DNA of 64,000 nt from Marinisporobacter sp. (lineage in GTDB: Bacteria > Bacillota > Clostridia > Peptostreptococcales > Thermotaleaceae): positions 248,001 through 312,000 of the forward strand of contig JAOARV010000067.1 in NCBI GenBank assembly GCA_025210395.1, given 5' to 3'. The stretch's first letter is position 1; every line of letters begins with the position of its first letter. The position numbers and the translations under genes were made by a program. The notes under the pieces are model-generated. The model was not told where the DNA came from. It did no database searches and saw nothing but the letters and a program-made list of their open reading frames with translations. Shown here piece after piece: positions 44,562 through 58,544 of the stretch.

Positions 44562-46652
44562 CTATAATTTTCTTGTAAGTTTTTCTGCTTCATCTTCAAC
44601 TTTTGTTACAATATTTTGTAACTTTTGTGACATTTGTTCTAGGCAATAAGCCATATTCGAAACATTTTCCATTGAATTTAATTGTTTTTTTGAATCTTCA
44701 ACCACATTTTCTGTAATATCCGCATTATCTTTAGCAATATGAGAAATGTGTTGTATAGACGCTAATATTTCATGGGTTCCAGCTGATGCTTCCTGAGTTG
44801 CTGCTGAGACTTCTTCTACTTTACCAGCAACATCATTGATTCTAACTAATATTTGGCTAAATGAATTTCTAGCATCATCAGCAATGCCAATCCCTTCTAT
44901 AACTTCTTTTGTCACAACATCCATGGTATCAACTGCTAGCTCTATTTCTCTTTGAGTTTCACTAATAAGGTTTGAAATTAAAGCTGCTGATTGAGTTGAC
45001 CGTTCTGCAAGTTGTCTCACCTCATCTGCTACAACTGAAAATCCTTTTCCATGTTCTCCTGCTCTAGCAGACTCAATTGCAGCATTCAAAGCCAATAAAT
45101 TAGTTTGAGAAGAAATTGCTTCAATTAACTTAACAATTTCTCCTATCTTTTTAGAATTTTCATCTAATAACTTAACTTTTGATGCTGCATTTTCTACTGA
45201 TTTGCTAATTGAATTCATCTGATTGATTGTATTATCAATTGCCCTATTTCCTTCATTAGCTTTTTCATTTGAATCAATTGCAAGTTCTGTTACATTTAGA
45301 GATGTCTCTGCGATTTGTTGAATCCCCTTTGACATTTCTTCAATTGTTGTAACACTTGACTCAGTTCTTTCAATATTTTCTTCAGATCTATTTGCTATTT
45401 CATGCACACTATTTACAATAACACCATTTGAATTTTTTATATCAAAGGTATCATTAGACAACTCTTTTGCAAATTGCATTACTTCACTTGAAATAGCTGA
45501 AAGGTCTTTAATTAAAATCAAAGTAATATCTTTACTATCCTTTAATGATTTCTCTGCTTTTTTACGTTGTAAATACATTTTGCAAAATAGCCATGAAATT
45601 CCTAAAGATGCTATGATCAGAATTAAATATATTACTATAGCTGTTTTTAATAAATCATTTCTAATACCACTTAAAACTTTTTTTGAAGTGTAAAGTAGAA
45701 TCTTCCAGTTTTGTTTCTTATTTTGTTGAGAATTTGTATTCTTAAGTTCTCCTGTTTCCGTGCTAACTTTAAATGCTTCTATCTTAGGATAAATTGTTGT
45801 AAAAGTAAATAATTCATTATCTGAATAAAACTGACCTTCTTCCTCTTTAGAAACAATTTTCCACGCTTCTGAAAAATCATTTCCAAAACTTCTATCATTT
45901 TTATACATGAATCCCCATTGGTCTTCCTCTTTTAATCCTTTTAAATAAAACCCTTCAGCATTTAATAATAAGACCTCTCCAAAGGCTCCACTATCTTTGT
46001 TAAAATCATCAAGCAGTTTCTCTCCTAAATAATTTAGTATGATTATTCCTCTCTTTTCTCCATCCTTATCAAAGACAGGTGTACAAAAGCGTATCATGGG
46101 TTTGATAGGTTTTTCAATCTCTCCATGTTCTTTATTTAGGTCAAATGGAGATACGTATACTTCTCCCTTTTGTAGAGGCAATGCTTCAAGTACATAATAT
46201 CTATCCGCTTTTAACTGAAGCTCTGACTTGTCAACTGCTTGTGGCGTGCCTTTATTATAGTTTACTCTAACAATCTCCATTCCTGAAGTATCTACAAAAC
46301 GTATTTGATCATATAATCCCTTTCGCTTTGCAAAAACCTTAAATTCCTCTTGTAAAATATTTTTCTCTTCTTCAGTACTATTATCCAAATTTTTCATTAA
46401 AATCTCTTTTTCAGATAGATACATCAAATCAGAAACAACTTGTTTAAAATTTCCTTCTAAGGACTGTTTCTTTAATTGCATATCATATTTCTCAGTATTC
46501 TGGATTGCATACTTTTCTCTGCCATAATCTATAAAAAAGTATCCAAAAACTACAATCGTTATTATTGTAAACATTGGGATAAAATATTTTAAAAAATGTT
46601 TGCTTATGTTTTCTTCTTTAAAACTTTTCTTCATAATATCTTTTTTGCTCAT
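44562..46652 (-). CDS. Methyl-accepting chemotaxis protein with Cache_3-type sensor
   Basis: 696 residues. TM1 is at about 20-42. The external sensor (about 60-330) has [34 protein letters not shown] and [17 protein letters not shown], typical of double-Cache (Cache_3) receptors. TM2 is at about 337-358. No clear HAMP follows; a short linker leads to the signalling domain. Tip [21 protein letters not shown], then [16 protein letters not shown]. The C-terminal half is otherwise a long coiled coil. Ligand unknown. ATG after agggtg. Confidence 0.93.
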
Positions 46653-46838: not shown

Positions 46839-47108
46839 CTATTTCACATTCTTAAGAATATTGTTTTGCATCTCCCTTAAAACAAACCCTATATAAACAT
46901 AGATCTTTATATCTCTTGTTTCCATCAGTCTTTCCATCATATGCGCCATCTGCACAAATCCAACGTGGCTCAGTTCTTCTATATTCTTTTCGAGTTTGCC
47001 ACGAAAAGTCTCATCCATCCTTCCTATATTACTTACTCCAAAGCTTGCTATCTCATCCATATATTCCTTTGTTCTTTTAATGATATCAATTTCCCTATCA
47101 AAAGCCAT
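46839..47108 (-). CDS. 89-residue protein at the end of the MoxR/VWA operon
   Basis: 89 residues, mostly helical and charged (MAFDREIDIIKRTKEYMDEI; MAHMMERLMETRDIKIYVY). No signal peptide, no cysteines and no known domain recognised. The ATG lies one base after the SWIM gene stop, so it is translationally coupled and belongs to the operon. Possibly a small adaptor or the detached end of a neighbouring subunit. The 46653-46838 gap that follows shows no strong terminator. Confidence 0.75.
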   Translation of the reverse strand: MAFDREIDIIKRTKEYMDEIASFGVSNIGRMDETFRGKLEKNIEELSHVGFVQMAHMMERLMETRDIKIYVYIGFVLREMQNNILKNVK

Positions 47109-47109
47109 C

Positions 47110-48642
47110 TTAATTCTCCCTTAAAATGATTTTTTTGTCATCGACCCATACGGCAATCATCTTTGCCTCTATATGAAAATCTTTCCTGCTTAGCTTCACA
47201 AGCATATAATCCACCTGCTTTAATGACTTGAGATATGCGATCATCTTGTCATCCTCTTTTCCTTCGTATTTGAAATATGCACAGAACTCCCTGACACTTA
47301 TTTCAAACCTCTGAATCTCTTCTCTGAATTTAAAATCATAAAAGAAGTCCATTTTTTTAGAGAGTATGAAGCATCGTTGACCCTCGTCTATGTATCGGTC
47401 TATTGCCTGATATATGGGAACCTGGTAATCCCTAAGATCCAGTTCCTCTTCATCTACAAGAGAAAGCTTTAAATTCGACGAGTTTGATATCCTATTTTGA
47501 TCCTTCATCACCACATTTTTAAGAATAAAACTCTTGTCACTCAAAGAACGGGCGCTTTGGGTGTTTTGGACAAACAATGACATGGATGATAGGTGACTCG
47601 CCTTCTGATTGGTATTTCTTCTAAGGTTGGTTATTTCATATATTTCTCCATCTTCCCTGTCCAAAACCAACATATTTATCAGCTTTGCCCCATCCTTTAG
47701 GTTGACGACTTCATACCCCAGTCCATATCCTGAAATCTCGCTGGTTTCGTATTTGTATTCTTTTTTCCTAAATAACCTATACTTTTCCGAATCTTCAGCG
47801 TCTCCTAACAGGATATATATATTAAAAAGAATGTCTATGATCTGACTGTTTATGTCCTCAAGCTTACTGTCTATATGATCATCAAGATATCTTTTTATGG
47901 TTCGTTTCAAGTTTTGTACCTTCTTAAAAAGAAAATTGTACTTTTCAAGCTTCAGCTTTATGCTCAAAAACTCTATCCTGTCTATCTCCCTTTTCTTTAT
48001 GGCATACAGCCCTATTCCTATCAGGTTTTCGAAATATTCCACAACCTCTTTTAATACCTTCCTATCAGGAATCTTAAACTCCACTTTTAGATTCTCAACT
48101 CCGTTAAGATTCTGGATATATTTTATGGCATATATAACTTCCTTTTCGTCATTTCCCTTGAAGGCTTCTTCCATATGAAACGGATATGTAAAGTTCACGT
48201 GCTTTTTCTTCCCAAGATCAATCTTTAAAAGAGAGCCTATCTCATGACTTATCTTCATGAAATCAAAATTGATAACAACATCATTTATAGTCTTTTGACT
48301 GCTATATTTTCTTATATCCTTAGATGTCACTTGGTTGATTGGTGCAAAATCTTCTATGGTAAGGGGTACCTCCTCTGCCTCTTTCCCCTCTTCCTTATTG
48401 TTCATCATATAAAGATAGGCCATGATTACATGCTTGCAATATTCCTTCCCAGGACAGGTACAGTGAAAGTCTTCTAACTTTCCATTAAATATTACCCTTT
48501 CTTCACCGATCTTAAACTCCCATTCTTTTATCATGGACACCTTTTCCTTGTCCATTGCCTTCAGAGCACGCTTATACATCCCCTTGTTCGTAAGGCTTAT
48601 TATATAATCCGAGTCTATTCGTTTTATCTGTTCTCTTATCAT
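47110..48642 (-). CDS. SWIM zinc-finger protein (YehQ-like position)
   Basis: 510 residues. The SWIM motif C-x-C-x5-C-x-H is seen near residue 58-70 (FHCTCPGKEYCKHV). The remaining ~430 residues are mixed helix and strand with no domain recognised. SWIM fingers bind nucleic acid or protein. Its start overlaps the VWA stop by four bases. In the Escherichia coli yeh cluster the SWIM protein YehQ likewise follows the VWA protein. Confidence 0.88.
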   Translation of the reverse strand: MIREQIKRIDSDYIISLTNKGMYKRALKAMDKEKVSMIKEWEFKIGEERVIFNGKLEDFHCTCPGKEYCKHVIMAYLYMMNNKEEGKEAEEVPLTIEDFAPINQVTSKDIRKYSSQKTINDVVINFDFMKISHEIGSLLKIDLGKKKHVNFTYPFHMEEAFKGNDEKEVIYAIKYIQNLNGVENLKVEFKIPDRKVLKEVVEYFENLIGIGLYAIKKREIDRIEFLSIKLKLEKYNFLFKKVQNLKRTIKRYLDDHIDSKLEDINSQIIDILFNIYILLGDAEDSEKYRLFRKKEYKYETSEISGYGLGYEVVNLKDGAKLINMLVLDREDGEIYEITNLRRNTNQKASHLSSMSLFVQNTQSARSLSDKSFILKNVVMKDQNRISNSSNLKLSLVDEEELDLRDYQVPIYQAIDRYIDEGQRCFILSKKMDFFYDFKFREEIQRFEISVREFCAYFKYEGKEDDKMIAYLKSLKQVDYMLVKLSRKDFHIEAKMIAVWVDDKKIILREN

Positions 48643-49730
48643 CTTCCAGCCCCCTTTATATAGTTGGCTAGTTCCTTCACTGTAACCCCTTCAACGGGTA
48701 TTCCTATCTTGCCCAGCTTCTTTGCAAAGTTTGAATTGTAGTACGAATTCGAATCATTCTGTATTCCTGTCAGCACCAAAGTCCTCGCCCCTGTATTTTT
48801 GACCTCCTCAAATTCCTTCAACATGGAAGTCTCTTCCGAAAACAGGTCCGTTATCACTATAAAAAGGGTCTTGTCAGGTCTTTTTATGAGGTTCCTTGAG
48901 TAGGCCAGCCCTCGCGCCACATCCGTTCCTCCACCCAGCTGAACATCAAGCAATATGTTTATAGGGTCTTCCTTAACATCGGACAGGTCCACAATCCTCG
49001 TGTCAAACAGCACGATCTTTATGTCTATATTGCTTATGTTGTAAAATATAGAGGATACTATGGCTATATAGATCAAGGATTCCACCATACTTCCACTACA
49101 GTCCACTACCAGAACGATATCCGCTGGCTTGTTTTTAGCTTTATTTGGATAGAAGTATACATCCTCCACATAAAGCTTTCCCTCTTCCTTATTATAGTTT
49201 TTCATGCTCTTTTCTATGGTCTTTTTCATATCTAAAGCTTTCGATCGGTTGTATCTTGACGAGTTAGACTTGTTTATGGTTCCTATCCTAGATAAATCAA
49301 TCTCAAATAATAACTCTTTCTTAATCTCATTAGCAATCTGTCTAATCTTGTACTTTATTTTGTTGCGCTCTTCTTCCTTTGTGTAGTCCTTGTACATGAT
49401 CAGCTTTTTCAAAAGATCCATGTCAGCCTTTGCATTTTCTAGGTAATTATCATCAGCAAGAACCTCGTACATTCCATATGTTTCGAATGCATCCGTTGCA
49501 ATCTTGTTAACTATGTCCTGATGGAGAATTTTTTGCACCTCTTTTAAGTTCTTGATGACCATTACGCCGCTTGACTCGCTTCCGTACATGCCTTTTTCAT
49601 TGGAATACTCGTTATCATACACGCTGTCTAGAAGTCTTTCAACGGCAAGATTATCCTGAGACAAGTTTACCTCCAAATTCTGCTTTGAAAATTTTCCAAG
49701 TATCAATCTCCATTTTTCAAGATTATTCAT
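48639..49730 (-). CDS. VWA domain protein (YehP-like)
   Basis: 363 residues. The N-terminal ~190 residues are helical; the C-terminal von Willebrand A domain (about 205-360) has an intact MIDAS: VVDCSGSMVES, the Thr of GGGTDVARGL and the Asp of IVITDLFSE. VWA proteins of this sort pair with MoxR ATPases, the metal site gripping an acidic side chain of a partner. The 5' end overlaps DUF5682 by 8 bases and the 3' end overlaps the SWIM gene. Confidence 0.93.
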   Translation of the reverse strand: MNNLEKWRLILGKFSKQNLEVNLSQDNLAVERLLDSVYDNEYSNEKGMYGSESSGVMVIKNLKEVQKILHQDIVNKIATDAFETYGMYEVLADDNYLENAKADMDLLKKLIMYKDYTKEEERNKIKYKIRQIANEIKKELLFEIDLSRIGTINKSNSSRYNRSKALDMKKTIEKSMKNYNKEEGKLYVEDVYFYPNKAKNKPADIVLVVDCSGSMVESLIYIAIVSSIFYNISNIDIKIVLFDTRIVDLSDVKEDPINILLDVQLGGGTDVARGLAYSRNLIKRPDKTLFIVITDLFSEETSMLKEFEEVKNTGARTLVLTGIQNDSNSYYNSNFAKKLGKIGIPVEGVTVKELANYIKGAGR

Positions 49731-51975
49731 AATAAATACCTCGCTGTCTCAATCCCTCAAGGGAAACAATTTCCACATTTCTATTCCTTTCAAAGTCCTC
49801 TTGGCTTATATCAAACTTCACAAGAAGATTTTCCGATATCTGGTTTAGCTTCCCTATATCTTTACTCAATCTTATAGTCTCCACAGGTCTGAGTTTTGTA
49901 AATATTTTCCTAAAATTCGGAAGCACCTTGAAAAATTCTTCTATTTTAAGATCTTCCACAAACTTATTCAATATATTAAGGAACCTATGGTTCCTTAATA
50001 TAATCTGATAGTTATTCAATAATAAATACGAAAGAAATAACGTGGTTCCTTCCATCTGATTTTCACTTAAAAGAAAGTTGTTTTCTATGGTCTTTATCAA
50101 CTTTTCTTCCTGAAGACGTCCCATTATATACAGTATAGAAAGGCTTATCCCCTTTAGGGATGTGGTCCATCTCAAAGCAAGAAGCTTTTCAAGCGTCTCC
50201 GCAAACAATTCTCTGTCCACCTTTTCGTTTTTCGATCCGTTTATAAATGAGTACACATGGTTGATGGAATCCGAAAGCTTCACTTCGTCTTCAAGCCTAA
50301 GTTCTTCAAGATTCTGAAGCGAAACCATAATCTTTGTATAAAGCTCATTTACCAAGTCGTTGAGTTCTTTTTCATATCTATTGCCGAAGGTCTCGTAGTG
50401 GTATGCCGTTCTCGTTATTTCGTTGAAAGCTTCTGTCAGTTCCAATAGGTTGCTCTCCTTCATCATGGCATGCTTGATCTTTTCCACAATGTCAACTGTT
50501 TTGCTTTCAACCTGAAGTACCACACAATCCTTCAGGCACGATACAGCCTTGGAAATCGTAGTAGACTCCTTTATCTTAAGTTTCAACCTTGATTCAACAG
50601 CCATATCTATGCTTTCCCCTAGAAACGCTGCTTCTATCACGGAAGGCATGACTTTTTCCCTGCTCGCCGTCTTGTATGTCTGTGTCATGTATTGGTCTAT
50701 ATCTATGTCAAAAAGGTCTATCCCCTTGATCCTTTCTGCAAATTCTATTTCAAGATATGATAGCTTGCTCAAAAACACACTTCGATTATATGCCTTCCTG
50801 TTGTTCAATATATTCAGCGTATAAATGCTGTTGGGTTTTGTGAACTTGTTTTTGACAAGCTCCTTTTGGAAATCATCCACAATAGGCGGAAGGTTGGATA
50901 TGTCGTGAACCTGTCCATATTCATCTCCTATCAGGTACCTCTTAAAATCTTCAAGTATGGCGTTCGTATCAATGTACTGGTTGAATTCGGTAAAGGTACT
51001 TATAGCACCGTCGAAAAGCTCATATACTCCCGGAAGCTTCTTTTCTCTAAGGGATGCAAGTCCATATGCCAAATCTATCGCACTGATTATCTTGGGTATA
51101 GATACCTGTTTTTTCGCCTTCTTGGCGTATTTTGTAAGCAATTCAACAAAAGTATCCCTTGGGTTCAGCCCATTTTTCAAAAATACCTTGTAGTAGTGAG
51201 GATAGTATATTCCTGCTCTGTATCCATTCAAGGTCGATATATTCTGAACGTTATACGGTATCAGATAATTCTTGTTGTCCTTGGTGAGCACCTTTTCCCT
51301 CTTTTCGTTCATTTCTATACTCCGTTTGATCATATTTGGAAGAACAACGCTATGAAAGCCTCCCGTGATCACAAGGGTTCTCTTCTTTTTATATTCATTG
51401 ATCTTCTTCGCCATGTACGACTCCCGAAGGTCGTTATATGGATTCGAAGGGCTCAGCTCCCTTGTGACACTGCAGTATGTCAGCATCTGCATCATATAAT
51501 CTTCTATCTTCTTTCCACTAAGCCCTATCTCGAAATACTTCTCATAATACTCGTCAAAGCTTTCAAGTCCGCTTTTTCTTACTAGCGCCCCTATATAGTT
51601 CGAATACTCAAAATCTATCTTTTCATCTCTTACAACATCAATATCGTATACGGGAAAATCTATAAACCTAGTTTCTATCTTCTTTTTGAATCCCAGCTCT
51701 ATGGCTACATATTCAGGAGAGGTATTGAAAAATGGAAAGTTTACGCCAACCTTGATTTCCTTATCATCTATATTTCCATATATGGAAACAGGCATCTTCG
51801 ACTGGGCAATATTTTCTATGAGATGATTCCCATCGCTTGGTCCTTCTATCAATATGACATCTGGCTTAAACTCCTCTATGGCGACTTTCACAAATTTCGA
51901 GCTTACAAGGCTATGGTGCCTTACGGGAAAAAAGAATATCTCTTCATTTTTAAATTGATTAAGGTCTATTTTCAT
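49723..51975 (-). CDS. DUF5682 protein (YehM-like)
   Basis: 750 residues. The N-terminal part has FFFPVRHHSLVSS, VILIEGPSDGNH and LVITGGFHSVVLPN. The spaced His, Glu and His residues resemble the TIKI/ChaN/EreA-like fold, so a metallo-hydrolase activity is conceivable but unproven. The rest is helical and repeat-like. Start overlaps the MoxR stop (ATGA). Always seen, to my knowledge, with MoxR and VWA partners in yeh-type loci. Confidence 0.85.
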   Translation of the reverse strand: MKIDLNQFKNEEIFFFPVRHHSLVSSKFVKVAIEEFKPDVILIEGPSDGNHLIENIAQSKMPVSIYGNIDDKEIKVGVNFPFFNTSPEYVAIELGFKKKIETRFIDFPVYDIDVVRDEKIDFEYSNYIGALVRKSGLESFDEYYEKYFEIGLSGKKIEDYMMQMLTYCSVTRELSPSNPYNDLRESYMAKKINEYKKKRTLVITGGFHSVVLPNMIKRSIEMNEKREKVLTKDNKNYLIPYNVQNISTLNGYRAGIYYPHYYKVFLKNGLNPRDTFVELLTKYAKKAKKQVSIPKIISAIDLAYGLASLREKKLPGVYELFDGAISTFTEFNQYIDTNAILEDFKRYLIGDEYGQVHDISNLPPIVDDFQKELVKNKFTKPNSIYTLNILNNRKAYNRSVFLSKLSYLEIEFAERIKGIDLFDIDIDQYMTQTYKTASREKVMPSVIEAAFLGESIDMAVESRLKLKIKESTTISKAVSCLKDCVVLQVESKTVDIVEKIKHAMMKESNLLELTEAFNEITRTAYHYETFGNRYEKELNDLVNELYTKIMVSLQNLEELRLEDEVKLSDSINHVYSFINGSKNEKVDRELFAETLEKLLALRWTTSLKGISLSILYIMGRLQEEKLIKTIENNFLLSENQMEGTTLFLSYLLLNNYQIILRNHRFLNILNKFVEDLKIEEFFKVLPNFRKIFTKLRPVETIRLSKDIGKLNQISENLLVKFDISQEDFERNRNVEIVSLEGLRQRGIYYE

Positions 51976-53039
51976 CTTATCTCAACTCTTGATTTGTATA
52001 GTTCCCTGTAGATCTCACTCTTTTTTGCCCTTTCCTTTACCACCTTTTCAAAATAATATTTAAGAGAACTTATATCCGCATCATCTTCAAAATCGAAACT
52101 ATTTATGAGATTTTGTGACACGCTTTGCATATCCATCTGGCTGTCGTTGAAGAATTTCGCATGCACGGCACATTCGTGGTAGACGTTTACAAGTTCCGCC
52201 GTTGAAAGGTTCTTCGTAGGCTTTTCAAGCTTCTTTCCGTCCACTGACTCTCCGTTTCTCATCTCCACGAAAACAGTTGTTAGCATGTCTATTACATCTT
52301 CCTCTATTACTATATTTTCTTCTAGCTTCATTACCTGATTTTTGACAATTTCCTTCTCAAGCTTTATGTTATTTACAGGATTGATCACTTCTATATTGAA
52401 TCTTCTCTTTAGGGCACTGCTCATTTCGTTTACTCCCTTGTCAAGGGTATTTGCAGTGGCTATTATGTTGAATCCTTCTTTCGCGAAGATATGGTTGTTT
52501 TCAGGAAGTTCAGGTATCATCATAACCTTGTCACTCATTATGGATATGAGCATATCCTGCACTTCCTGAGGAGTTCTCGTTATCTCCTCAAATCTCATAA
52601 GACTTCCGTCCATCATGGACTTCATCACAGGAGACTTGATGAGGGACTTCTCACTTGGACCATTGGCAATCAAAAGGGCATAGTTCCACGAGTATTTAAG
52701 GTCGGCTTCGCTTGTTCCAGCATTTCCCTGTATCGTATTAAGGGAGTTGTTGCATATTGCAGCGCTTAAAAGTTCACTGAGCATGGTCTTTGCAGTTCCT
52801 GGAACTCCTATCAGAAGAAGTCCCCTATTGGTAGCAAGGGTGACTATGGAGCGTTCTACAACCTTGTCATTTCCATAGATCTTCTTGCTTATTCCTAGCT
52901 CGTCGTCTCCAAGTATAAACTTTCTAACGGATTTCGGAGACATCTGCCAGCCTGTCGGGCATATGTCTCCTTCGTTTTCTATAAGTTTTTTGATCTCTTC
53001 TTTATAAAGCCTTTCCACAGGCAGTTTTTGAATTTCCAT
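51972..53039 (-). CDS. MoxR-family AAA+ ATPase (YehL-like)
   Basis: 355 residues. Walker A GVPGTAKTM (about 78-86), Walker B-like LMRFEEITRTP, sensor 1 IIATANTLDKG and the arginine-finger region ALKRRFNIEVI. MoxR ATPases form hexamers and act as remodelling chaperones with VWA partners. The open frame reaches 53102 inside the DUF4132 gene, but ATG 53039 is preceded by aaggtgaag and avoids the overlap. Second gene of the operon. Confidence 0.93.
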   Translation of the reverse strand: MEIQKLPVERLYKEEIKKLIENEGDICPTGWQMSPKSVRKFILGDDELGISKKIYGNDKVVERSIVTLATNRGLLLIGVPGTAKTMLSELLSAAICNNSLNTIQGNAGTSEADLKYSWNYALLIANGPSEKSLIKSPVMKSMMDGSLMRFEEITRTPQEVQDMLISIMSDKVMMIPELPENNHIFAKEGFNIIATANTLDKGVNEMSSALKRRFNIEVINPVNNIKLEKEIVKNQVMKLEENIVIEEDVIDMLTTVFVEMRNGESVDGKKLEKPTKNLSTAELVNVYHECAVHAKFFNDSQMDMQSVSQNLINSFDFEDDADISSLKYYFEKVVKERAKKSEIYRELYKSRVEIR

Positions 53040-53061
53040 TTGCTTCACCTTTTTCGTTGAT

Positions 53062-56000
53062 TTATTTTGTGCATATTGCCCTAATCTGAGATATGACAGC
53101 ATTTAGGAACTTCGGCTCCACCTGGCAGAGCTTTGCCTCATTAGAAGCATTCACATCATCATACATGTAGCTTCCACGCTCTATGGTTCCCCTTTTATAG
53201 AACTTAAGATCCTTAACAGTGACACTCTCGTCTCCCATTCCTATATACAAATATTCTGCGTCTATCTGCGCTCCGTACTCAAGCTCTTCAAATTCTATAT
53301 AAAGTCCGTCATATCCTCCTCCGTCTACTATAGATGTCTTGTACCATCCCTGTTTTTCAAGTTTTGAAACAAGACTTATGGCAGGAATTTTCGTTCCATT
53401 AAACCCATCATATAGGGTATTGTTCATTTTCTCTTCATCTATTTGAACAATCTCTATTTCAAGCTGTTTTATGGGCTGGATGATCTCGTTATCTTCAAGA
53501 TTTTCTTTCCACATCTCAAGTTCTTCTTCCGCCAAGTCCATAGGATGGATAAGACCAAATTCTTCTCCCTCTTGAAGCTCGATCTCTTCGTAGTCCGCAT
53601 CTGCAAAGGTTCCATCATCCATGTACCTAAAGGATTTTACAAGCTTGTTTTGGGAATCGTATTTTCCCCATATGAGATTTACAGCGAACATATTCATGAT
53701 AGGATTTTTTACGAATACCTTTTTAAATGTTTCCATATCCCATCTTCTCTCAATGAATATAGCCCGTTCAAGTCTTGTCTTCTGAGCTGCAACAATTGTC
53801 TTGAGCTGCTTTTTGACCGCCGTAAGATGCTTTTTCGAAGCTTTCCCTATCTCTTCGTCATCTGATTTGGAAGGCTTCGGAAGAGTCTTTATCATCTTCC
53901 CGTCCGGATTTGAAAGCTGTATGGTAAGGTCTTTTTTAAGAGTAGCTGTAAACGTCCTGCTTCCGTAGTCGAGCTTCAATTCCTTGTTTGCGTCAAAGCC
54001 AAGATTCGGAATAATCAGGTCTGCAAGTTCTTCTTTCGTAAGTCCCATATTCTTAGCAGCTATGAGAAAATACTCCCCTGCAGTCTTTTTAACCATCTTG
54101 TTTTTATATTTTCTACTTATGGAATCTAGCTGCATCAGGGCATAGTCGCTTCCATGAAATGCCATGGCCTTAACTCCTTCTGAAGCTATGGCACCTCTTG
54201 AATTTTGCGTCCACTCGTCTATTTGTTTCTTAAAATCCATCATAAACAGCTCGTCACAATTGTATACGGCAAACACCATAGCCATCTTCATTTTGGCAAC
54301 AGCTCCAAGACCAAACCACTTGTCATATACATATCTTCCAAGCTGGTTTAAGTCCTCTTTTTTGAGCCTTGACTTTATTATAGGTGCCGTAAGGGGAAGC
54401 TCTACCTTGGGACTAAGAAGAAATGTGGCTAGGTAGTATTTTAATATGTTCTGAGAAACTTCTTCCCCCGTATTCTCATCCTTAACCTCTGGAAGAGTGT
54501 CTATTTCAAGCTTTCCAATAGCCTTGTCCATCTTTTTCGGATTATAGAACTCCTCAACAATAGTGTCGAGACTTATATTCTCCATATCCATCCTTTGAAG
54601 CTTGTTGTAGTCTACTATATATTCCACTAGCTCCTTGTTCGCCTTAGGCAGCTTCCCCTTCAAAAGCTTTTCAAGTTCTCCGTTGTACTCAGTCCTTCCC
54701 ATGAAGTACTCCCTTGATATTTTCTGGATGCTCTTGTATTTGTTTTTCAGTCCATTAAGGGCAACTTCTAGGTCTTTTGGTTCCTTTTCATAGTAATATT
54801 TCATAAACAACATCTCGTATCTGGAATCTTCCAGCTCCGTTTGAAGCCTTTCCTTATATTTTTCTATATTTGAATCTAGATATTCAAAGTATGGAGACTT
54901 GATCTCTCCCTTAAAGGAATAACTTCTTTCCATCCTTGTAAGAAGTTTGTTTTCATCCATTCCTGCCTCTATTAGCTCCTTGATCTTCTCTTTTTCATTT
55001 CCTCTTGCATAGATATATTTTTCAAGGACCCTATAATCATTTGAATACATGAAACTGAAAAGTATGTAGTTTATGGCAAGATCGCTCATCCCAAACATCA
55101 TAGAGCACGATATGATAATTTGTGTATCGTACCTCTGGTTATTAAAATAATGATTGTATAATGTATGATCTTTTTCACTTCTTCCTGCCTCTATATCTTC
55201 TACTATAGAAGGGCTGTTTTTCGTCTTGTTTTCCTCCGTTAGGAGTCTTTTCACCTTGGAATCGAAATCTTTTACATATTTTCCTTTGTCTTCAGACTGC
55301 TTTATAAGAACAGCATACAATATAAGGGAATCAGCTATGTCACCTGCCTTCTCTAATGAGCATATGACATCCATAAACTCTTGGGACTGCTCTCTTGAAA
55401 ACCTTATCTTTTCAAGGCTTACTTTTGTATCATACGCTCTTCTGATCATGCTTGTGGCTATTTCCTTTATTAGCAGTTCCGACATTTTAAACTTCGAACT
55501 CATGTATTTGTATTCATCTATGTAGAAATCTTCCCTTGTTTCACTCTTTACCATATTCGAAAGTATATACAACTTTTCATGTGCTACTATAAACGCCCTG
55601 TCCGCATCTGTGTATTCCTGTGTTTTTCCACTCTTATACAGATAGTATACGATAAGGGCAAAGGCGTCTTTTTTCTTCGTCATTTTTTGTGCATATTGGG
55701 GTGATTTTTGGATAAGATCCTCAAATGATTCTTTCCTTCCTTCATTTATATACCTACAAAACTGAATCTGCCCCTTTAGAGAATCGTCTTTAGTATTTTC
55801 ATAAAGGGTGTCTATATGCTCCTTGTATTTTTCGTAGTCCTTAAGATACCATCGTCCATTTTCAGATACATCTTCATGCCCCCTTATGCGTTTTGCTATA
55901 TTAAACCTAAAGTTCGCAAGAATATAAAGGTATGATACAAGGATAGGATCATCTTCAAAGGCTGCGTCTATCCATACTTTCTGAAGGTCTTGTATCCTTT

Positions 56001-56232
56001 TTGGCTCCACTAATAGGGAATATACCTTGAACAGTCGGATATCCATTTCCCTATTCTTTGAATCTTCAGGAGTATACCAGCTGTAACTATATATGCCAAA
56101 ATCAAATCTTTCCTCTATCTCTTGGAAAATACCGAGTATGTTTCCTCCCTTTTCTATATAATCATCTATCTGGTCCTGCTTTGACTTTTCGTAATTCGAA
56201 TAGTATTTCTTAAGCGTACTTTTTATTCTCAT
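53062..56232 (-). CDS. DUF4132 protein (YehI/MolR-like)
   Basis: 1056 residues. A long helical N-terminal region (HEAT/ARM-like in appearance) is followed by the C-terminal DUF4132 domain (about 830-980). This holds KTRLERAIFIERRWDMETF, NPIMNMFAVNLIWGKYD, GLIHPMDLAEEEL and IIQPIKQLE. A final ~80-residue piece follows. The biochemical role is unknown. First gene of the operon; GTG 56241 is rejected in favour of ATG 56232 after agaggtg. The codon and base composition here and in the next genes is richer in G and C than in the flanks. Confidence 0.88.
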   Translation of the reverse strand: MRIKSTLKKYYSNYEKSKQDQIDDYIEKGGNILGIFQEIEERFDFGIYSYSWYTPEDSKNREMDIRLFKVYSLLVEPKRIQDLQKVWIDAAFEDDPILVSYLYILANFRFNIAKRIRGHEDVSENGRWYLKDYEKYKEHIDTLYENTKDDSLKGQIQFCRYINEGRKESFEDLIQKSPQYAQKMTKKKDAFALIVYYLYKSGKTQEYTDADRAFIVAHEKLYILSNMVKSETREDFYIDEYKYMSSKFKMSELLIKEIATSMIRRAYDTKVSLEKIRFSREQSQEFMDVICSLEKAGDIADSLILYAVLIKQSEDKGKYVKDFDSKVKRLLTEENKTKNSPSIVEDIEAGRSEKDHTLYNHYFNNQRYDTQIIISCSMMFGMSDLAINYILFSFMYSNDYRVLEKYIYARGNEKEKIKELIEAGMDENKLLTRMERSYSFKGEIKSPYFEYLDSNIEKYKERLQTELEDSRYEMLFMKYYYEKEPKDLEVALNGLKNKYKSIQKISREYFMGRTEYNGELEKLLKGKLPKANKELVEYIVDYNKLQRMDMENISLDTIVEEFYNPKKMDKAIGKLEIDTLPEVKDENTGEEVSQNILKYYLATFLLSPKVELPLTAPIIKSRLKKEDLNQLGRYVYDKWFGLGAVAKMKMAMVFAVYNCDELFMMDFKKQIDEWTQNSRGAIASEGVKAMAFHGSDYALMQLDSISRKYKNKMVKKTAGEYFLIAAKNMGLTKEELADLIIPNLGFDANKELKLDYGSRTFTATLKKDLTIQLSNPDGKMIKTLPKPSKSDDEEIGKASKKHLTAVKKQLKTIVAAQKTRLERAIFIERRWDMETFKKVFVKNPIMNMFAVNLIWGKYDSQNKLVKSFRYMDDGTFADADYEEIELQEGEEFGLIHPMDLAEEELEMWKENLEDNEIIQPIKQLEIEIVQIDEEKMNNTLYDGFNGTKIPAISLVSKLEKQGWYKTSIVDGGGYDGLYIEFEELEYGAQIDAEYLYIGMGDESVTVKDLKFYKRGTIERGSYMYDDVNASNEAKLCQVEPKFLNAVISQIRAICTK

Positions 56233-56326
56233 TTTCTTCACCTCTTCTTAGTATTTTCTTAAGCATACTCTAGTTCTCGAGCTGCTTTTCGAATTTCATC
56301 CTATTCTATTATCAATACGGATGCTT

Positions 56327-56485
56327 TTAGTGAGACTGTACATCATATTCATCTGCAACAACTATATCTCCAACATTATACTTAAATTATAAAATCTCTA
56401 CATCTAAGTTGTTCAATCCCATAAACCTATTGACATTTACAAGAATTACCATAATTTCACTTCCAAAGTCTTTCTTATGTATCCA
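56327..56485 (-). pseudogene. Degraded coding remnant upstream of the DUF4132 gene
   Basis: In one frame, a stretch starting WIHKKDFGSEIMVILVNVNR continues to a TAA and then reads on in the same frame as FKYNVGDIVVADEYDVQSH before a second stop. It has no start or ribosome binding site. The codon pattern looks like former protein-coding DNA with one nonsense change. Not identified. Confidence 0.3.
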
Positions 56486-56672
56486 TTATAATCCAATATG
56501 CTAAATTTCTCCATATTTTTCATCATATAATTCTCCATAAACATATATAAACTAAGACAAAGAAGTCATCGTCACGAGAAATTTGTAATATTTTTAACTA
56601 TTGATTGCCCCATTGCAAAATATGACCCTTTCGAAAATTTCTAATTTCAAGAAATTATTTACCCCTACAACA

Positions 56673-56704
56673 AAATTCCCCCAAACCATAGTCTGAGGGA
56701 ATTT
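56673..56704 (-). terminator. Terminator after the GGDEF gene
   Basis: AAATTCCCTC.../...GGGGGAATTT imperfect stem followed on the minus strand by tgttgtagg; modest T-tract. Confidence 0.65.
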
Positions 56705-56720
56705 CCTGCTATTTAAAACT

Positions 56721-58544
56721 CTATTTAATTACTTTATTCCTACCGCTTTTTTTCGCTTTGTATAAATTACTATCTGCTCTATTAACAATATCTAATAATG
56801 ACTCACCCGTCCTATATTCTGCAACACCACCACTAATTGTTATTTTGATATTTTTACTTCCTATAACCAATTTACTCAATTCATCCCTATACCTTTCAGC
56901 AGCAATATAAGCTTCATCAAGTTCAGTATTTGCCATAATAATCATAAATTCTTCACCACCATAACGACCAAGAACATCAACAGCTCTTACTCTCGATGAT
57001 AAGAAATTTGACACTTCTCTCAATGTTACATCCCCTTCTATATGACCATAAGTATCATTCACTTTCTTAAAGTGATCAATATCAAAAATGACTATAGAAA
57101 AAGTTTCATTGTATCTCTTAGATATCTGAATATTTTGGGTAAGATTCTCCATTAGATATCTTTTATTATAAAGGTTCGTTAAACTATCTGTAATACTTAA
57201 TAATTCTAATTCTTTTGTCCTTTCATATACAATTTCTTCTAAAGAAGCATTGACCTCTTCTAACTCTTTTTGCTTATCATTCACCATCATTAAATAATCT
57301 CTTAATTTAACAGACATACTATTAAATGATCTTGTTAGCTGACCAAGTTCATCACTTCTCTCCGTTTCGATTTGTACCCCCCAATTATCATTAGCCATTT
57401 GATTCACTCTACTATTAAGAAATATTATCGGTTTTAATATCCATCTTGAGATAAATATATACGCAATCAATATTAATAGAGCAACAGTAAAAAATATTAT
57501 ACTAAACTTAAAAAATAATAGCTCTATATCACCTACTAAATCATCTCTAGGAATTGCTATCATAAGATTCCAATTTATTTTATCATTATGGGAATACTTA
57601 CTGAAACTATAATAGTAATCTTCCCCCATCACCTTAATAGGTGCTTTGATCTCTTCATAAAAAAAATGATTGTATTCATTGTTGATTGTATTATACCCTT
57701 CTCTAATTACAGCATTTTTACTTTCAATAGCAGCTAATCTAACTTGCGCCCCATCCATATCTTTAAAAGGTTTTTCACTTGTAGATGATGCCACAATTAA
57801 TCCTTTTTCATCAACTAAACAAACAACACCATTCTCGGTTATTTCTATAGTTTTTAGAAATTCCGACATCTGATCTAGTAAAATATCAGTTCCAAAAACA
57901 CCTAATTTCTCTCCATTAGGCGAAATAAGTGGATAAGAAGTACTCATTCCTAAGATATCTTCTTGGGCACCAGAATATACATCAGTCCAATATGCTTTCC
58001 CATCTTCATTTGCTTTAGCATACCAAGATCTAGTTCTTGGATCAAAATTCTCAACGGATTTAATATAATTTAGGATATTCCCATCTTCATCAGCTTCATA
58101 TATTTTAAAAGCTCCTGCTTTCAGATCCTCCGTGTAAGAAATTCGATTAGTACCTTGATATAGTCCAGAAGAAACTATTCCACCATCAGCATTAGCAAAA
58201 TATGCGTAATCAATGGAAGTGTTGCTGTTCACTTCATTCAAAAGTATTTTCCCTAACAGTCGTTCATCCTGCAAGTTGAGTTGTTTGTTTTTTGCAAGAA
58301 TAGCATTAAATTTGTTCACAGTCTCAGGAATCTCAAAATAATCATCTAAATGATCATAAATATGATTTGTAATTCTCACTTGATTTGTCGCTATAACTTT
58401 TGCACTATACTCATTAACAAAATTTTCAATTTGAAAATAACTTAAAGTACTACTGAATAGCAAAATAAGAAAAACTGGAATTACAATTATCGTTCTAAGA
58501 GATAATTTATTTACTACCCGAAAATATACTGATTGCTTTTTCAC
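56721..58544 (-). CDS. Cache-HAMP-GGDEF diguanylate cyclase
   Basis: 607 residues: TM1 (about 14-34), dCache sensor (about 40-335, with FDPRTRSWYAKANEDGKAYWTDVY), TM2 (about 345-367), HAMP (about 370-420), coiled coil and GGDEF. The active-site loop is RYGGEEFMII with metal-binding FDIDHFKKVNDTYGH; no RxxD inhibitory site is obvious upstream. It should make cyclic di-GMP in response to an external ligand, opposing the HD-GYP protein at 28.9 kb. GTG start after aggagg. Confidence 0.94.
   Translation of the reverse strand: MKKQSVYFRVVNKLSLRTIIVIPVFLILLFSSTLSYFQIENFVNEYSAKVIATNQVRITNHIYDHLDDYFEIPETVNKFNAILAKNKQLNLQDERLLGKILLNEVNSNTSIDYAYFANADGGIVSSGLYQGTNRISYTEDLKAGAFKIYEADEDGNILNYIKSVENFDPRTRSWYAKANEDGKAYWTDVYSGAQEDILGMSTSYPLISPNGEKLGVFGTDILLDQMSEFLKTIEITENGVVCLVDEKGLIVASSTSEKPFKDMDGAQVRLAAIESKNAVIREGYNTINNEYNHFFYEEIKAPIKVMGEDYYYSFSKYSHNDKINWNLMIAIPRDDLVGDIELLFFKFSIIFFTVALLILIAYIFISRWILKPIIFLNSRVNQMANDNWGVQIETERSDELGQLTRSFNSMSVKLRDYLMMVNDKQKELEEVNASLEEIVYERTKELELLSITDSLTNLYNKRYLMENLTQNIQISKRYNETFSIVIFDIDHFKKVNDTYGHIEGDVTLREVSNFLSSRVRAVDVLGRYGGEEFMIIMANTELDEAYIAAERYRDELSKLVIGSKNIKITISGGVAEYRTGESLLDIVNRADSNLYKAKKSGRNKVIK

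Follow-up and report, generated by a model that had tools for sequence, protein, structure and literature searches.

Which process is served by a gene cluster that joins a MoxR AAA+ ATPase and a VWA protein to members of the DUF4132, DUF5682 and SWIM zinc-finger families? The question is raised by six genes at positions 46839 to 56232 of a 64,000-nucleotide stretch of DNA from the clostridium Marinisporobacter sp. (contig JAOARV010000067.1; the whole stretch is hereafter called the window). The composition of the gene cluster is settled. Its products strongly suggest, by analogy with the established pairs NorQD, CoxDE and RavA-ViaA, a MoxR-VWA remodelling machine, and the explanation that we tentatively prefer, at slightly short of an even chance, is a YehL-type protein-remodelling machine of this kind that is controlled by DNA damage in several lineages. 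The operon and its upstream region comprise the following features.

53062..56232, minus strand: DUF4132 gene, YehI counterpart, about 1056 amino acids (aa), Pfam DUF4132 6.5e-45
51972..53039, minus strand: gene of a YehL-subfamily MoxR AAA+ ATPase, 355 aa, Pfam AAA_5 2.7e-34
49723..51975, minus strand: DUF5682 gene, YehM counterpart, 750 aa, Pfam DUF5682 5e-71
48639..49730, minus strand: gene of a CoxE-type VWA protein, YehP counterpart, 363 aa, Pfam VWA_CoxE 1.1e-30
47110..48642, minus strand: SWIM zinc-finger gene, YehQ counterpart, 510 aa, Pfam SWIM 9.6e-4
46839..47108, minus strand: gene of an 89-aa helical protein, starting 1 nucleotide (nt) past the end of the SWIM gene
56233..56720, minus strand: intergenic region upstream of the DUF4132 gene, with sigma-70-like hexamers

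An intact operon with a counterpart in E. coli

All six open reading frames (ORFs) are intact and lie on the minus strand with the DUF4132 gene first, separated along the operon by a 22-nt gap, overlaps of 4, 8 and 4 nt, and a 1-nt gap. An earlier note on this DNA had described a translationally coupled six-gene unit, and the order, overlaps and gaps are exactly those that it gave. The DUF4132 gene could alternatively start at a GTG, at 56241; for MoxR the ATG at 53039 is most likely the start, because an ORF start at 53102 overlaps the end of the DUF4132 gene. The families named in the note were recovered as well: in the Pfam scan DUF4132, AAA_5, DUF5682 and VWA_CoxE were all far over the cut-offs, and the SWIM match, slightly below the gathering score, is accompanied by intact zinc ligands (CTCPGKEYCKH) and a match of the protein to YehQ.

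The same note had named a counterpart in E. coli, yehI-yehL-yehM-yehP-yehQ. The gene order in strain K-12 (yehI-yehK-yehL-yehM-yehP-yehQ) agrees with this, and all five proteins are homologous to those of the window, MoxR and YehL being the strongest of the five pairs in BLASTP (44% identity, 1e-101), followed by VWA and YehP (26%, 1e-52), DUF4132 and YehI (29% across 350 aa, 3e-44), DUF5682 and YehM (21%, 4e-36), and SWIM and YehQ (24%, 5e-6). The window cluster is thus of an already known kind, because the MoxR literature includes a YehL subfamily, one of seven recognised MoxR subfamilies, which was named on the basis of sequence and local gene structure (PMC3893208). In the literature searched we found no paper giving a function for the YehL cluster and no mention of DUF5682. 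As the cluster is present in E. coli K-12, hypotheses about it are directly testable there.

A MoxR-VWA core and its putative helical scaffold

Both Walker motifs of the window MoxR are intact (Walker A, GVPGTAKT; Walker B, RFEEITR), and the protein shares 48-53% identity with three of four aligned Bacillota relatives and 44% with the fourth; among solved structures, midasins are closest to it in sequence (E 2e-19). The VWA protein, which at 363 aa ends with the VWA domain (median of relatives 383 aa, n=73), retains an intact metal-ion-dependent adhesion site (MIDAS; DCSGSM, GGGT and D295). With these motifs and the analogy to NorQD, CoxDE and RavA-ViaA, the remodelling type that had been proposed from the letters of the window gains support. 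By analogy with NorQD and RavA-ViaA, the MoxR ring would then act on a target that the CoxE-type VWA protein holds.

The target may be chosen by a HEAT scaffold (DUF4132, or DUF5691 in another subtype of the cluster) together with the SWIM protein and its small helical partner. The DUF4132 protein consists of a long alpha-solenoid or HEAT-like part and a C-terminal DUF4132 domain. Its profile matches HEAT and alphaRep structures in the PDB, a HEAT_2 match is present in 14 of 34 relatives, and the AlphaFold model, with a predicted local distance difference test score (pLDDT) of 75 and confident from about residue 500 onward, returned helical-repeat matches only in a whole-model Foldseek search. 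The profiles of DUF5691 and DUF4132 align weakly (43%), and both families appear to be HEAT-type scaffolds. Tandem DUF4132 genes precede MoxR in Orbaceae, in Clostridium ganghwense and in E. coli (there with the pseudogene yehH), which suggests repeated duplication of the scaffold.

Conservation, subtypes and the question of a defence role

Conservation was surveyed by a scan of named genome loci with a MoxR alignment, which covered at least 80 loci, including a well-covered subset of 51 that span 20 kb or more. All five families lie within 21 kb in 42 of these 51, a lower bound owing to the simple ORF caller, and the cluster is conserved far above chance expectation. Among the at least 80 loci, MoxR, DUF5682 and VWA are adjacent almost throughout, with SWIM and DUF4132 within the same cluster. 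Cluster members are known from seven phyla. The gene order of the window is common to C. ganghwense, Oceanirhabdus, Bacillus, Priestia, Proteus and E. coli. Order varies by lineage, MoxR being first in gut clostridia and Paenibacillaceae, and the same sets are also found in Deinococcus, Hymenobacter, Rhizobium, Agrobacterium, Fusobacterium and Iodobacter. A second subtype, SWIM-DUF5691-MoxR-DUF5682-VWA, in which DUF5691 stands in for DUF4132, occurs in Deinococcus, Hymenobacter, Rhizobium, Methylosinus, Fusobacterium (by size) and some Paenibacillaceae; in one locus of this subtype a further gene, for 78 aa, is inserted between those of MoxR and DUF5682.

The distribution is patchy. DUF5682 was found over the cut-off in 2 of 16 genomes of the family to which the window belongs and in 5 of 299 of its phylum. 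YehL-type MoxR is present in 75 of 151 Paenibacillaceae and, across the class of that family, in 51 of 399 genomes; some copies of the cluster are plasmid-borne. Such a pattern, together with the use of MoxR-vWA cores in conflict systems (PMC7159879), would fit an antiphage or anti-plasmid system with DUF5682 as effector hydrolase, and a conflict-type role had indeed been put forward in the earlier note. We consider this quite improbable. A classical defence role is not supported, because PADLOC was uninformative (generic ATPase-level matches only, the strongest being one to IetA of 27 residues at 6e-4), no match was found on viral contigs, generic regulators and transporters make up the recurrent neighbours, with no recurring defence gene among them, and the hallmarks of ternary conflict systems are missing. 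The domain set is moreover constant in the families surveyed, without variable effector fusions. The ternary vWA-MoxR systems with their VMAP, iSTAND and beta-propeller components (PMC7159879) share the MoxR and vWA core with the window; however, bpMoxR reached only 19 bits in the window against a cut-off of 27, the Pfam scan of the window gave no VMAP, iSTAND or propeller but DUF5682 and DUF4132 instead, and no effector is fused to the window VWA protein. A phage origin was rejected as well, there being no match on viral contigs and a single, unverified phage record whose operon looks bacterial. This record, MT835988.1 ('Bacteriophage sp.', 14 kb), contains a DUF5682 gene and is probably a mislabelled bacterial contig.

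Candidate DNA-damage operators upstream of the cluster

In Deinococcus radiodurans, mitomycin C is reported to raise both DRA0166, a DUF4132 protein, and DR2173, a WGR protein, in an IrrE-dependent manner (PMC8533742). E. coli MolR is noted in the same paper as a described member of the LexA regulon, and molR is listed as LexA-regulated elsewhere (PMC11039860, PMC4576408). For these reasons we examined the promoters of the cluster, using the published Gram-positive LexA consensus CGAACRNRYGTTYG, one promoter for each of 21 lineages, and mononucleotide shuffles. LexA boxes before the operon in relatives gave a combined p of 7e-7, or 3e-6 without Paenibacillaceae. C. ganghwense (L079) and a congener (G007, L011), both of which have the gene order of the window, carry the exact box CGAACAAATGTTTG before DUF4132. 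Near-LexA sites are located 32 nt before the first gene of the cluster in Proteus (CTGTTTATCCATACAT) and 25 nt before the first gene, the WGR gene yehF, in E. coli (CTGGATAAAATTACAG); in Deinococcus taeanensis a DdrO-like site (TTACGCCAGAAACATAA) lies 36 nt upstream of the first gene and is the sole match with at most 2 mismatches in 21 kb. Each of 30 Paenibacillaceae has an invariant LexA-like element, GAACRTAYGATC (RGAACRTAYGATCY), at about 30 nt from MoxR on its upstream side, and in 4 of 4 genomes the extended pattern of this element has one match per genome, before the operon only. The element is not fully explained as a general LexA site, a reading that was rejected because it occurs once per genome while lexA promoters there use GAAC..GTTC. 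Promoter sequences and the published induction of related genes thus support DNA-damage control of the cluster in several lineages. If the recurring operators are real, a cluster of unknown function gains a direct hypothesis, namely that it is mitomycin-inducible and lexA-dependent.

Several observations weigh against this reading. The window promoter shows no LexA/DinR box within 250 nt before the start (best 4 mismatches, p 0.67), and the window genome, whose assembly is 91.6% complete, yielded no full LexA (PF01726), its only match being short and off-type. In the checked loci of Rhizobiales, Streptomyces and Iodobacter no LexA-type box was seen ahead of the cluster, nor was one seen there in Orbaceae, Acinetobacter and Pseudomonas; the alphaproteobacterial LexA box GTTCN7GTTC was likewise not found before the Rhizobiales clusters. 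The near-LexA box of E. coli precedes yehF, not yehL. Since the Paenibacillaceae element departs by one invariant base from the sites in lexA promoters there (GATC for GTTC), it is possibly an operon-specific operator of a distinct regulator, or a LexA variant. Finally, the promoter lineages are not fully independent, some of them being related, and one motif form was noticed before being tested. The window genome may have lost the classical SOS repressor, or the gene may fall in a gap of the assembly. The palindrome GAACN4GTTC is rarer in this genome than a control pattern (12 vs 31); its congener G007, unlike the window genome, has two LexA (PF01726) matches.

Some of these points would also suit a general stress chaperone unrelated to DNA, the operator-like sites then belonging to another repressor with a similar palindrome. 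MoxR proteins are often linked to stress (PMC11834572, PMC11432383), the element of Paenibacillaceae is unique in each genome and differs from standard LexA sites, and the window itself is devoid of a box. We give this explanation little credence: exact LexA boxes occur in two clostridia with the window gene order, and LexA-, DinR- and DdrO-type sites are each found in a lineage that uses the respective regulator. In the explanation that we prefer, a damage repressor would control the cluster in several lineages, albeit not demonstrably in that of the window. Under such control the remodelling machine would act after DNA damage, and our guess is that it perhaps strips or processes protein complexes on damaged DNA.

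DUF5682 as a probable member of the Tiki superfamily

The AlphaFold model of DUF5682 (pLDDT 84) comprises an alpha/beta domain (about residues 1-250) and a C-terminal helical solenoid. The N-terminal motif residues of the window protein are R19 H20 H21, E44, R184 E185 M188 and G205 H208, and R19 H20, E44, R184 E185 M188, G205 and H208 are, among others, invariant in 39 relatives. TraB proteins have the same series, in which strand 1 is followed by H and strand 2 by E, with R..M and then GxH further on. Profile-profile alignment of DUF5682 with TraB (hhalign) gave a probability of 82% and an E-value of 1.1e-5 over 224 columns with the motifs in register, compared with 1.6% and 0.1% for unrelated controls, and direct ChaN matches were obtained for 11 of 30 DUF5682 relatives (best 8e-4). 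Because of the TraB alignment and the ChaN matches, the DUF5682 N-terminus is probably a divergent Tiki-superfamily (TraB/ChaN-like) domain with a putative activity, in line with the TIKI/ChaN-like motifs that had been pointed out earlier. No Tiki member was found in profile searches against the PDB, and whole-model Foldseek returned helical repeats only, the solenoid swamping the search. The assignment names concrete candidate catalytic residues; within the machine, DUF5682 may contribute an active site of the Tiki type, which possibly depends on a metal and is carried on a solenoid. In one relative the DUF5682 copy (L005, on a short contig) contains one in-frame TAG, possibly marking a pseudogene or a recoded stop.

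In a different explanation, the cluster encodes a dedicated chaperone that inserts a metal or cofactor in the manner of CoxDE or NorQD. Its MoxR-VWA pair would mature a metalloprotein, the client most likely being a molybdenum enzyme or DUF5682 itself, which has a His/Glu site of the Tiki type. The VWA protein is of the CoxE type, CoxDE and NorQD insert metals (PMC3471820, PMC9976466, PMC13036017), DUF5682 with its conserved His/Glu adjoins MoxR almost everywhere, and molR was named for a molybdate phenotype in work of 1990, as cited in PMC8533742. However, no respiratory or molybdenum-enzyme gene recurs among the neighbours of the cluster, moeA and moeB of D. radiodurans are unchanged in the DdrO response (PMC8533742), and HEAT and SWIM partners as well as damage operators would be unexpected. 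Metal insertion is rather unlikely in our view. A more far-reaching form of the damage-controlled remodelling machine, which we hold possible yet doubtful, is that the YehL cluster constitutes an unrecognised arm of the DNA-damage response, in which a MoxR-VWA complex with a Tiki-type hydrolase, independently put under LexA, DinR or DdrO, would act on nucleoprotein complexes once damage has occurred.

The SWIM protein, the 89-aa gene and the genomic setting

The zinc-binding CxC...CxH motif of the SWIM protein is kept in 57 of 57 relatives. A separate gene for a helical protein of 89-142 aa follows the SWIM gene in 23 loci, a corresponding domain of about 90 aa is fused to the SWIM C-terminus in 23 other loci, and in three loci a second, internal copy of the domain lies within the SWIM protein. 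By phmmer, the 89-aa protein of the window had no significant direct homologue, and it scored only 6 bits against this domain, about third-best of 500 shuffles. Because position and size fit and this weak score can be added, it is moderately supported that the 89-aa gene represents a stand-alone form of the SWIM C-terminal domain. The fusion of the two provides candidate protein contacts. New in this analysis are this relation, the Tiki-like N-terminus of DUF5682, the DUF5691 subtype and the recurring damage operators in relatives.

The operon (46839-56241) has a G+C content of 37.9%, compared with 31.9% for the window, which could be explained by acquisition or by mere coding density. Its neighbours encode a methyl-accepting chemotaxis protein (44562-46652) and a Cache-HAMP-GGDEF diguanylate cyclase (56721-58544), with no hint of a common function.

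Comparison with known systems

The closest known system is the E. coli yeh cluster, which has five families, in order, in common with the window operon. It differs in the presence of yehK between yehI and yehL, and in the WGR gene yehF and the pseudogene yehH upstream, yehF being preceded by a LexA-like site; the window operon in turn has the additional 89-aa gene and is without such a site. DUF5682 resembles the Tiki superfamily (TraB/PrgY/GumN, ChaN and erythromycin esterase) in its N-terminal fold profile and its H, E, R..M and GxH motifs, but carries a long helical solenoid and stands in the context of a MoxR-VWA machine. RavA-ViaA is likewise a MoxR-VWA pair, although RavA belongs to another MoxR subfamily (PMC3893208) and no common accessory genes were found. 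NorQ-NorD and CoxD-CoxE share with the window a MoxR protein and a CoxE-type VWA protein with MIDAS, whereas the window adds the HEAT, SWIM and DUF5682 parts and has no client-enzyme operon close by. Midasin/Rea1, the eukaryotic remodeller of ribosome assembly, also combines an AAA+ ring with a MIDAS partner; in eukaryotes these form one giant chain, whereas in the window system they are separate subunits.

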